From an uncultured Erysipelotrichaceae bacterium (GTDB lineage: Bacteria > Bacillota_I > Bacilli_A > Erysipelotrichales > Erysipelotrichaceae), in assembly GCA_945877405.1 (NCBI GenBank), contig CAMCSA010000016.1, forward strand, positions 1 to 44,207: a stretch of DNA of 44,207 nucleotides. The letters run 5' to 3'. The notes beneath the pieces are model-generated. The model worked only from the letters and a program-made list of their open reading frames with translations. It had not been told where the DNA came from and made no database searches. The translations under genes and the position numbers were made by a program. This document shows, one piece after another, positions 2,858 to 33,460 of the stretch. Every line of letters starts with the position of its first letter. Positions within the stretch are counted from its first letter, which is position 1.

Positions 2858-3691
2858 TCACCCTTCAATCAGTCCATAATGCACCAGAGCATTGTAGATG
2901 CCATCTTCATCCGCATGATCTGTCACATATTCGCACATGTCCTTGATATTCTGTGCACCATTTCCCATCGCAATCGAATGCTTTACCGTCTGCATCATTT
3001 CAATATCATTATTGGAATCTCCAAATCCATAACAATCCTCTGTACTGCCACCATAAATTTCAAGTACCTTACGGATTCCTGTTCCCTTATTGATACCTTT
3101 CGCAGTAATCTCTCCACCACGATTGCCCGTTCCAGCGTAATAACCGCCGGATAAAGCAAGCTGCAGATTATCCGGAACACGGGAAAAGAAGATATCCGCA
3201 ATCATCTGCTGTGTGAAATAGATATCCATTTTCTGTACAGGTTCTCCTTTGTACTCACCCATGAAGCGGACGCCTCTTTTCGCAAAGATCTCTTCGATTG
3301 ATAGATCCGAATATCTGCTGCCCCAGTTACGCGCACTCTGCTTATAACTGCTTTCATTTTTGAACATGCATTCTCTTGTCAGCAGAGAATAATCACCACC
3401 CAGATAATCTGTAATTTCCATCAGCTTATAGACCAGTTCCTGTGGAATATCTGTTGTGGAAAGAATTTTACCATCCATTGCCACACCTGCTCCATTGCAG
3501 AAGATAATGCCTGGAATGGCAATTTCATCCATATATTCCTGCGCCAGATGAAATGATCTGCCCGTACAGATAAAGCACTTATGTCCAGCCTCCATAGCCT
3601 TTGTGATTCCTTTTACAGCACTTTCAGGAATGTGCCTTGTGGATGGAGAAATCAGTGTTCCATCCATATCAAAAAACAGAAATTTACTCAT
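2858..3691 (-). CDS. Cof-type HAD-superfamily hydrolase, paralogue A
   Basis: 277 aa with FFDMDGTL (motif I), CTGRS (II), TAKGINKGTG with the motif III Lys, and GFGDSNNDIEM (IV). The C2-type cap between II and III is typical of the Cof/YidA group that hydrolyses small phosphorylated metabolites in the cytoplasm. By eye about half its residues match the neighbouring 3745-4569 protein, including EYKGEPVQKMD and FFSRVPD, so the two arose by tandem duplication. GAGGT lies about 6 nt before the ATG. A promoter with TATAAT at 3709-3714 precedes it. It is the first gene of the operon that continues with the tandem histidine phosphatase 4 nt downstream. Confidence 0.88.
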   Translation of the reverse strand: MSKFLFFDMDGTLISPSTRHIPESAVKGITKAMEAGHKCFICTGRSFHLAQEYMDEIAIPGIIFCNGAGVAMDGKILSTTDIPQELVYKLMEITDYLGGDYSLLTRECMFKNESSYKQSARNWGSRYSDLSIEEIFAKRGVRFMGEYKGEPVQKMDIYFTQQMIADIFFSRVPDNLQLALSGGYYAGTGNRGGEITAKGINKGTGIRKVLEIYGGSTEDCYGFGDSNNDIEMMQTVKHSIAMGNGAQNIKDMCEYVTDHADEDGIYNALVHYGLIEG

Positions 3692-26720: not shown

Positions 26721-26957
26721 ATGCCAAAGGAAAAAAGACTGAATGGATTTGGAACCGCTGTGCTGATTCTGATCAGCAGTATTGGACTGTATATCCTGTC
26801 ACAGCTGTTTCTGATTCCCTATAATGTATCATTGCATCGTGAAATGCAGAATCTGTCTGCTCAGATTCAACAGTTGAGATCGGATAATGCCATCCAGCAT
26901 GCACAGATTGATTCCCTTTTGGAACAGCTGGATCTCATGGCTGATAGCTCTCAATAA
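26721..26957 (+). CDS. Small single-pass membrane protein with coiled coil
   Basis: 78 aa. A basic start (MPKEKRLNG) is followed by one hydrophobic segment (about residues 10-31) and a heptad-rich stretch (SAQIQQLRSDNAIQHAQIDS). Topology is like FtsL/DivIC/FtsB-type septum proteins, but I see no residue signature that would prove this. AGGAG is about 7 nt before the ATG at 26721; an upstream ATG at 26715 overlaps the previous stop. Paired with the RHH-like gene. It overlaps the end of the convergent 81-aa gene by 23 nt. Confidence 0.65.
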   Translation: MPKEKRLNGFGTAVLILISSIGLYILSQLFLIPYNVSLHREMQNLSAQIQQLRSDNAIQHAQIDSLLEQLDLMADSSQ

Positions 26958-27180
26958 ACCACCTGTCCTTTTCCAGGAAGATACATCTTGTCTGTCCCCC
27001 GATCAGACAGACATATCGCATGCCACAGCCACCAACCTGAGATGCTCTGCGCTCTCTGCTGATGACACGATCGATCTTATATTTCTTTCCATCTTCCCAG
27101 CAGACATACAACGGTTCAATCGAGCCGTTTTTTGATTGTCTTAAGACAACATCAATATATCTTTTGTATAACTGTTTCAT
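26935..27180 (-). CDS. Conserved 81-aa protein divergent from the S24 repressor
   Basis: 81 aa (MKQLYKRYIDVVLRQSKNGS ...). I recognise the pattern of a short conserved Firmicute protein (I-D-V-x-x-x-x-x-x-x-G-x-x-x-P-L, W-x-D-G-x-x-Y-x-I-D-R-V, G-x-R-Y-x-C) that is often found beside LexA-like and error-prone polymerase genes; its function is unknown to me. GGAGGGACC precedes the ATG. The promoter region is shared with the LexA-like gene and contains paired operators, so it is probably under damage control. No polymerase gene lies nearby. Confidence 0.7.
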   Translation of the reverse strand: MKQLYKRYIDVVLRQSKNGSIEPLYVCWEDGKKYKIDRVISRERRASQVGGCGMRYVCLIGGQTRCIFLEKDRWFIESYQP

Positions 27181-27201: not shown

Positions 27202-27229
27202 TTTATATCGCAACTGTTGCATATTTCAA
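27202..27229 (-). promoter_or_regulatory. Predicted promoter of the 81-aa gene
   Basis: Minus strand TTGAAA (27224-27229), 16-nt spacer, TATAAA (27202-27207). The -35 lies between the arms of inverted repeat O2. Confidence 0.5.
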
Positions 27230-27240
27230 CATATTATGCA
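27218..27240. promoter_or_regulatory. Candidate repressor operator O2 (TGCATA-N11-TATGCA)
   Basis: Inverted arms TGCATA at 27218-27223 and TATGCA at 27235-27240 flank the -35 of the promoter of the 81-aa gene. The same arm sequences recur as O1. Confidence 0.55.
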
Positions 27241-27258
27241 ACATTTCATAATTTACAA

Positions 27259-27287
27259 TTGTTTCATTGATGCATAAAGGCTATAAT
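27259..27287 (+). promoter_or_regulatory. Predicted sigma-A promoter of the S24 repressor gene
   Basis: TTGTTT (27259-27264), 17-nt spacer, perfect TATAAT (27282-27287), with AAAGGAG and the ATG at 27306 just downstream. Confidence 0.68.
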
Positions 27288-27292
27288 ATGCA
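27271..27292. promoter_or_regulatory. Candidate repressor operator O1 (TGCATA-N10-TATGCA)
   Basis: Inverted arms TGCATA at 27271-27276 and TATGCA at 27287-27292. The left arm is in the spacer and the right arm touches the -10 of the repressor gene's promoter, a classic repressor position. Confidence 0.55.
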
Positions 27293-27305
27293 CAAAGGAG
27301 CAATT

Positions 27306-27899
27306 ATGAAATTATCCGAACTGATCAGAGAATACAAAGAAAAGACAGGATTTTCAGACAGCGAGATTGCCAGAAGATGTGGTGTATCACGTTCCACTGT
27401 CATGCGGTGGTCAAACGGTGATATTCAAAGAGTATCATCTGAGGCAATGTCAAAACTGTCAGAACTGTTCGGCTATAATATTGAACCACAGTTAAAAGGC
27501 ATGGATATTTCCATGAGATTGCCTGTACTTGGTTATGTCAAAGCCGGATATGATCTGCTATGCGAAGAAAACTGGCTTGGGGAAGAGGAAGTAAGCCTTT
27601 CTGATCGAAAAAAAGGTGACTATTATCTGAAAGTCACCGGTGACTCCATGATCGGATGTGGCATCATGGATGGTTCTCTTGTTCTGGTACAGAAAACCTC
27701 CTCCATCAGTAACGGTGATATCGCCGTTGTCCTGATCGGGGAGGAGGTCACTGTAAAAAAGGTTTATATCAAAAACGGATTACTGATTCTAGAAGCCGCC
27801 AACCCGAATACCCCAGGTCGCATCTTCACGCAGCAGGAAGTTACTTCCCTGCCTGTACAGATCATTGGAAAAGTGCTTTCCTGTAAGACTTATTTCTAG
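27306..27899 (+). CDS. LexA/CI-like autocleaving repressor (XRE HTH + peptidase S24)
   Basis: 197 aa. Residues 1-60 are an XRE-type helix-turn-helix (GFSDSEIARRCGVSRSTVMR). Residues about 70-197 are the S24 domain: the likely cleavage pair Ala80-Gly81 in YVKAGYD, nucleophile Ser114 in GDSMIGCG and general-base Lys151 in VTVKKV. This layout matches HdiR/P22-C2-type regulators that cleave themselves when RecA is activated and so act as SOS or prophage-type repressors. AAAGGAG lies 5-6 nt before the ATG. It faces the 81-aa gene and both promoters carry paired operators. Its stop codon overlaps that of the convergent Dabb gene. Confidence 0.9.
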   Translation: MKLSELIREYKEKTGFSDSEIARRCGVSRSTVMRWSNGDIQRVSSEAMSKLSELFGYNIEPQLKGMDISMRLPVLGYVKAGYDLLCEENWLGEEEVSLSDRKKGDYYLKVTGDSMIGCGIMDGSLVLVQKTSSISNGDIAVVLIGEEVTVKKVYIKNGLLILEAANPNTPGRIFTQQEVTSLPVQIIGKVLSCKTYF

Positions 27900-31983: not shown

Positions 31984-32150
31984 GTCAATTACCCGACTAT
32001 AAAGAGTCGAGGCTTGTAACTCACTCATATGGTCCTGACGTCATTACAGCTGTAATGCTCCCATATTAGACACTTTGTGTCTCCCTCGGTACAGAGGACT
32101 GTGGCTACATCGTCGGGTGATTGACGGACACCCGTATTGTAATTTTGTTA
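31964..32150 (-). ncRNA. Omega-RNA (reRNA) of IS copy 2 with guide position
   Basis: From the tnpB stop to the right end the minus strand holds a chain of hairpins: CGGGTG-TCCGTCAAT-CACCCG (32112-32132), GACAC-AAA-GTGTC (32069-32081), the palindrome CATTACAGCTGTAATG (32042-32057), and the terminal GACT-CTTTAT-AGTC hairpin near 31993-32010. In TnpB systems this segment is the scaffold RNA and the first flanking bases (31964-31983, inside the AEC gene) act as guide. Pairing is kept relative to copy 1 despite sequence changes. Transcription is inferred from the family. Confidence 0.65.
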
Positions 32151-33414
32151 TTTATTCAGTGATACTGGTTTCTCATTTTCTGAAACCCTTAACTTCGGAT
32201 TCTCATTACCGGAAATCCATAATGTTCCTAACAACTGAATATTCATAGCACCAACCTGATCGTCATTAGCCTGATATCCGCAACAGTCACATGTATACAG
32301 ATGTGAATCATGGTCTCTATTGGCTTTATGGATTCTTCCACACTTTGGACATCTTTGTGATGTGTATTCCGGTGATACTTTAATAACCTTAGAACCGACT
32401 TCTTCTGCTTTGTATGTCAGAAACTGTTCCAGCTGGTAAAACGACCATGATCGTAATTCATTACGCTGTTTACTGTTACGGTTTCTCAGGTTTTCATCAA
32501 AGCTGACATCCGTCAGGTCTTCCATCACAAACAGCGTATTGCTTCCGTATGTATCCACGAGTGTCTTTGACAGGCAATGATTGACATCGCTCATCCAACG
32601 GTTCTCTCGTTTTGAAATACGTTTCAATGCACGTTTTGTGTGATTTTGTACCTTTAGACTGTAATTCAGCTCTGACTTTATTAAAGTTTTCTCTTTTCCT
32701 GCATACCGCTTCACCAGAATAGAAAGAAGTCTGATCGTTCTCATCGTATGTTGTCATCAGATAACGAAGACCACGATCAATACCGACAACATGCTTCACC
32801 TGATCTTTGTCAAATTCAGTATCGTTCTTTCTTGTCACAGGAATGTGAAAGTACCATTCATCTTTCAATGATACAATCTTTCCTGTTCCAAATGACCATG
32901 TACCATCAAAGTAATCACTGAAACATGCAGGTACATCAAAAGTTACTTTGATTCTGCCATCCAATGTATTCAGGGATAGATATGTTGTATTCGTCTTTTG
33001 ATCTGTTACAAAGCTGTAATCTCTATTTCTGACAAGATCTGCCTGTGGTCTGGAAAACAGAACAGGTTTCTGCAACCAGTCCAGATTCCGGTAGACGCAG
33101 TACCACTTGTTCGTATAGATATCCTTGAACTTATATGGCTTTTCCTTCATCTGTGTTCTGATCCCATCGTATCTGGCTGTCACGGTTCGTATTGCGGATT
33201 GTGCCATCTGTGACTTCAATCCAAATTCAGAACGTATTGTCTGATACAGCCTGTTACTAAGAGTTACAGAACTCATTGGAAAGCCATGGTCAAAGATATA
33301 CTGAGACACGAAATTGCAGGCAAGACGATACTGCTCTGTCATATGTTGAACAGAGCTTATTTCAGTGTCATTCATGTGAATGTGCAGTTTCATTGTTTTC
33401 ACAGTGTCAGCCAT
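32148..33414 (-). pseudogene. tnpB: tnpB RNA-guided nuclease gene with a single frameshift
   Basis: The N-terminal part reads from 33414 (AAGGAGG before the ATG) to about 32650, including RuvC-I VGIDRG (Asp213) and ending in frame at ELQSKGTK. Translation then continues in another frame as TKRALKRISKRENRWM to a stop at 32148, with RuvC-II VMEDLTD, the zinc finger CPKCGRIH ... CDCCG, and RuvC-III NDDQVGAMNI. The shift lies near 32635-32655. All catalytic Asp/Glu and zinc Cys are present, so the gene is one indel from a ~420-aa TnpB. It could be a recent mutation, a sequencing error, or programmed slippage; the site has no clear slippery heptamer. Confidence 0.85.
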
Positions 33415-33460
33415 TTTAACCTCCTTCAATACTTTTATTATACCGAAGAATCCCTTATGA

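Follow-up and report, generated by a model that had tools for sequence, protein, structure and literature searches.

S24-family repressors other than LexA that govern error-prone polymerases are known, HdiR in the Streptococcaceae and UmuDAb in the Moraxellaceae, and their convergence has been proposed (PMC8565304). The UmuDAb gene is divergent from that of DdrR, a small corepressor of 78–81 aa reported to be unique to Acinetobacter (PMC7273328). Small partners of Y-family polymerases have been described as well. Standalone ImuB-C proteins accompany the polymerase in two YqjH subgroups, mostly of Clostridia, and also in a lexA-imuB-C-polY operon of Geobacter (PMC6511836). For the Erysipelotrichales, no described SOS regulator was found in the literature searched.

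The locus studied here lies in a stretch of 44,207 nucleotides from an uncultured Erysipelotrichaceae bacterium, which is referred to as the window; the genome is of a rumen type and 'Solobacterium'-like. It is probably (at about 0.72) a minimal SOS-like module made of an S24 repressor, two operators and an 81-aa output, from which an ancestral Y-family polymerase has been lost. By description, the module is like HdiR of the LexA-less Lactococcus/Streptococcus (PMC8565304) in its predicted autoregulating S24 repressor with a phage-type HTH, its presumed control of umuC-type polymerases and a genome without LexA. It is unlike HdiR in its operator, TGTTGCATA-N11-TATGCAACA, in the divergent partner, a DinB-like polymerase with the 81-aa protein, and in its host order. 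In architecture, the level at which the two were compared, UmuDAb-DdrR of Acinetobacter (PMC7273328) shares an S24 repressor divergent from a gene for 78–81 aa, an operator over the −35, the lack of LexA and the presumed control of error-prone polymerases, whereas the small gene of the window type ancestrally lies downstream of a polymerase. The YqjH/standalone ImuB-C systems (PMC6511836) similarly place a Y-family polymerase beside a small protein that is mainly beta, and a LexA-type repressor often accompanies them; the window repressor, however, is not LexA, and the polymerase is missing in the window. The YolD-UmuC (YqjW/UvrX) pairs of Gram-positives also have a small beta-rich partner of a Y-family polymerase, but the 81-aa family does not match PF08863, and some relatives carry a YolD and an 81-aa relative both after UmuC.

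Features of the locus in the window (positions are those of the whole stretch; a dot marks features without strand)
Feature	Position	Strand	Basis or remark
81-aa gene	26935..27180	-	small, basic, predicted all-beta; Y-family polymerase partner in relatives
Leftward promoter (predicted): TTGAAA 27229-27224, 16 bp, TATAAA 27207-27202	27202..27229	-	sequence, and -35/-10 pattern and position kept in relatives
Candidate operator 1: TGTTGCATA-N11-TATGCAACA, leftward -35 at centre	27215..27243	.	kept across Erysipelotrichales
Rightward (repressor) promoter (predicted): weak TTGTTT 27259-27264, 17 bp, TATAAT 27282-27287	27259..27287	+	sequence
Candidate operator 2: TGCATA-N10-TATGCA over repressor -10	27271..27292	.	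exact in window
S24-family repressor, 197 aa (P0002): N-terminal Cro/C1-type HTH, C-terminal peptidase S24	27306..27899	+	

An earlier note on this DNA had described a matched pair of dyads on divergent promoters, and this anatomy holds. The dyads at 27218–27240 and 27271–27292 have no mismatch at either site; the first encloses the TTGAAA of the leftward −35 on the minus strand, and the second overlaps the TATAAT of the rightward −10. The left dyad is longer than first noted, with arms of 9 bp. One 6-bp inverted repeat by itself is unremarkable for an intergenic region of these 125 bp (36% of shuffles), and two inverted repeats with one common half-site occur in 9 of 20,000 dinucleotide shuffles. 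A generic scan for the promoter consensus gave no excess over shuffles, missed the rightward promoter and set the leftward −10 at TAAAAT with a spacer of 18. The promoter calls therefore rest on conservation: TTGAAA or TTGATA, about 17 bp and TATAAT recur in relatives at the position of the leftward promoter.

The repressor matches PF00717 (Peptidase_S24, E 8e-23) and HTH_3 (E 6e-8). The residues of autocleavage that had been noted are present as A80-G81, S114 and K151, in a spacing equal to that of LexA, and S114 and K151 are invariant among 28 relatives. With an Ala-Gly, a Ser-Lys dyad within Peptidase_S24 and an N-terminal HTH, the protein belongs by sequence to the self-cleaving S24 class (HdiR/CI/LexA-like). 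The closest solved structures, through the C-terminal S24 domain, are LexA and UmuD, and the best match of the whole protein to a family is the phage repressor family phrog_4. Identity with LexA was rejected, as the N-terminus matches HTH_3 and not PF01726, and the score against the lexA equivalog (79.9, residues 65–191 only) is below the cut-off of 110.95. The repressor is the one S24 gene in the window's genome (95.6% complete), where recA is present and the LexA winged-HTH DNA-binding domain PF01726 has no match anywhere. It was found in 35 of 60 relatives. In the orthologues of loci L018, L024, L026, L028 and L029, Gly-Gly replaces Ala-Gly at the presumed cleavage site.

In relatives, the divergent gene facing the repressor is usually a DinB-type Y-family polymerase, followed by the 81-aa gene, and the ends of the two overlap in some loci. 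The ancestral order, as reconstructed from these arrangements, is S24 repressor, operator, divergent Y-family polymerase and then 81-aa gene. Sorting of 81 loci gave 40 with S24, polymerase and 81-aa gene; 17 with S24 and 81-aa gene but without polymerase, the window among them; 10 with polymerase and 81-aa gene and no S24 in the fetched stretch; 2 with 81-aa relatives after UmuC-YolD; and 12 with neither S24 nor polymerase near the 81-aa gene. The polymerase thus stands between operator and 81-aa gene in 40 of the 57 S24/81-aa loci and is absent in the other 17. In a scan of named genomes, the hosts are rumen or gut Erysipelotrichaceae ('Solobacterium' MAGs), Longibaculum, Longicatena, Dielma, Traorella and Ca. 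Stoquefichus; more distant 81-aa relatives are carried by Oscillospiraceae, and the polymerase and 81-aa pair is also found on an Oscillospiraceae plasmid.

Some loci depart from these arrangements. At L216 (about 3244–3435; G054:C49:20243-20434), a cassette-type polymerase and an 81-aa relative flank a short ORF (open frame 96 aa) that encodes a LexA DNA-binding domain (PF01726, E 2e-16). The 81-aa-family genes of L161, L166 and L167 form tandem pairs in stretches without polymerase. At L154 and L157, a UmuC-like gene, a YolD-like gene downstream and then an 81-aa relative follow each other, apparently as one operon at L154, with genes for HTH and protease-like proteins ahead of them. At L060 and L061 (G043 and G038), a gene for 302–304 aa stands opposite the same repressor and operator; that of G038 has a weak, partial match to the IMS family (E 5e-7) and is perhaps a degenerate polymerase.

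Across 57 cassettes, the operator has the consensus TGTTGCATATTTCAATATTATATGCAACA. Operator 1 wraps the −35 of the divergent promoter throughout the Erysipelotrichales, and its symmetry is kept by paired changes in both arms, for instance ATGTGCATA...TATGCACAT and GTAGCGTA...TACGCTAC. For the analysis of covariation, the sites were placed by the divergent −35/−10 alone, which avoids choosing them by their symmetry. Complementarity of the arms was found in 329 of 486 cells vs 266 ± 7 in shuffles, and 49 positions are changed on both arms vs 20 ± 4; neither value is reached in any of 2000 shuffles, and both counts are inflated by the kinship of the sequences. Such paired changes are what a dimeric binder would enforce. 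Operator 2 is much less conserved than operator 1: the window and a few relatives have a strong site, many others a single half-site.

The same operator is found before umuC genes unlinked to the cassette in three genomes, G027, G030 and G048, the site of G048 being perfect, and ahead of a cassette-type polymerase gene, also unlinked, in G055. In genomes without the S24 repressor, the umuC promoters hold no operator above shuffle level, and none convincing was found before the unlinked 81-aa genes of G042, G047, G055 and G041. In relatives the operator precedes Y-family polymerase genes, as would be looked for in a repressor of error-prone polymerases, but in the window's genome umuC is without it. 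There, upstream of umuC and recA, no operator rises above shuffle level, and the co-regulated regulon would therefore comprise the repressor and 81-aa pair only. Further genes behind TGCATA-N10/11-TATGCA, for which a genome search had been proposed, did not appear: exact matches in the 2.1-Mb genome are limited to the two sites of the window, and of the nine sites with 3 mismatches, one lies about 320 bp upstream of an ORF and the others within ORFs. The link to DNA damage is much stronger than before, because in relatives a Y-family polymerase occupies the divergent position and the same operator precedes umuC in some.

The cassette polymerase (called at E<1e-75) is absent at the window locus. 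The only other Y-family genes of the genome are umuC and a dinB flanked by recN and a gene for a recombinase; the product of this dinB shares 31% identity with the cassette polymerase. The 81-aa gene is present in all 20 genomes that have the cassette polymerase and in 22 further genomes without it; in one of the latter, G051, a broken polymerase adjoins the 81-aa gene. On the S24 tree the polymerase-less state requires about 10 changes, at least 6 of them forced by well-supported branches, where gains are formally inseparable from losses and either could be mimicked by cassettes that passed between lineages. As read from these comparisons, the window is a polymerase-less version that has arisen repeatedly. 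Of the compact damage-inducible switch of the earlier note, one part stands, namely an S24 repressor that carries the cleavage residues and is predicted to be autoregulated, facing matched operators on divergent promoters in a genome with a single S24 gene and no PF01726 match. Another part, an 81-aa protein as an unexplained free-standing output, has given way to a downstream partner of a Y-family polymerase, kept after polymerase loss. Elsewhere in the window (32148–33429, minus strand), two overlapping ORFs together resemble a TnpB-type protein (IS200/IS605 OrfB) that a frameshift seems to have split, as judged from the translation by eye.

The 81-aa protein is basic, with a net charge of +7 in the window and +3 to +9 across the family, and its model (pLDDT 92.5) is confidently predicted as an all-beta fold. 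The family has no match in Pfam, NCBIfam or PHROG. Foldseek with the model returned nothing at E<=0.001; in a second structural comparison the best Z was 3.7, among scattered Tudor/SH3-like rows, and a search of solved structures with the profile gave no match. YolD was rejected as its identity, with no PF08863 match among 22 members. Conserved P, W-G, R-Y and R-W-F motifs resemble ImuB-C in their order by eye, and the family may be the standalone ImuB-C subunit that lies beside clostridial polymerases. Eight members have no match to Pfam DUF6504 (the ImuB C-terminus), and hhalign against 13 proteobacterial ImuB C-termini gave a Prob of 0.8%, within the range of shuffled controls, and a global Prob of 0.2%.

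Relatives of the 81-aa protein also occur in Heliusvirales and unnamed gut phages, with 11 GenBank phages matching by tblastn. Of 8 phage contigs examined, 7 carry a polymerase closely related to that of the cassette (E below 1e-123) within about 3 kb. The repressor gene near this pair is of the S24 type in one contig and encodes phage-type HTH proteins in the others, some of which adjoin an ImmA-like metalloprotease. Scanning IMG/VR with the 81-aa alignment confirmed none.

The linkage to polymerase and operator in relatives and the same pair in Heliusvirales phages argue that the locus is most likely a module of the HdiR/UmuDAb kind with an all-beta accessory of translesion synthesis as its predicted output. 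A dimer of the S24 repressor would bind operator 1 and block the −35 of the 81-aa gene, and binding to the weaker operator 2 would repress its own gene. On damaged DNA, RecA would form filaments and cause the repressor to cleave itself at A80-G81 by S114/K151, by which both promoters would be freed. Ancestrally, the output is a Y-family translesion polymerase and, encoded behind it, the 81-aa protein. After the polymerase gene was lost in the window lineage, the 81-aa accessory would be the sole output, presumably acting with another polymerase such as the genome's UmuC or the housekeeping DinB. The operators, the domains and residues of the repressor, their conservation, the polymerase linkage and the polymerase loss are evident in the sequences; the binding, cleavage, induction and accessory role of the 81-aa protein are inferred.

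As an alternative, the 81-aa protein may act on the repressor as a corepressor or modulator, like DdrR in LexA-less Acinetobacter. Architecture and size match umuDAb-ddrR, whose UmuDAb site overlaps both −35 elements (PMC7273328), and a corepressor role would explain why the 81-aa gene stays beside the repressor after polymerase loss, as it does in 17 polymerase-less loci. Yet the gene ancestrally lies downstream of the polymerase, its relatives follow UmuC-YolD in two loci, polymerase and 81-aa gene occur together in about ten loci whose fetched stretch holds no S24 gene, and G002 has no S24 match genome-wide at E<=1e-20; we consider this role unlikely. Slightly less probable still is a decaying remnant in which the 81-aa gene persists but has no role of its own. 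At the window locus the polymerase is gone, and the 81-aa protein is somewhat less conserved in polymerase-less loci (60% identity where S24 has 64%) than in polymerase loci (69% where S24 has 68%), as decay would have it; however, the 81-aa gene, promoter and operator are intact, and through about 10 changes on the S24 tree the 81-aa ORF has always been kept, usually with a recognisable operator.

A prophage-type immunity switch of CI/Cro logic, in which the 81-aa gene would serve the phage, is very improbable, even with phrog_4 as the best family match of the repressor and with repressor, polymerase and 81-aa gene together in Heliusvirales phages. The neighbouring genes in the window are chromosomal, among them those for a PfkB-type kinase, a Dabb protein and a ROK kinase, and the cassette with its conserved operator ranges over a bacterial order. 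A phage origin of the module is possible; a present prophage function of the window locus is not indicated. Returning to the SOS-like module, its anatomy and evolution are well supported. More tentatively, the 81-aa protein may be its essential part, either as a new damage-tolerance factor that works independently of the polymerase or as a modulator that binds the repressor; the ground for this is that the polymerase can be lost repeatedly, yet the 81-aa protein is found wherever the polymerase occurs, in bacteria and in Heliusvirales phages.

What emerges here is a predicted SOS-like module that is not based on LexA, has a defined operator and is reduced in the window to a repressor and an orphan polymerase partner. 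Translesion polymerases of bacteria and phages are accompanied by a family of proteins of about 80 aa that has no name in Pfam, NCBIfam or PHROGs. Since the polymerase is dispensable and the 81-aa protein is not, the part played by small mutasome subunits can be tested directly. The Erysipelotrichales, common bacteria of the gut, gain a concrete candidate repressor, operator and regulon.
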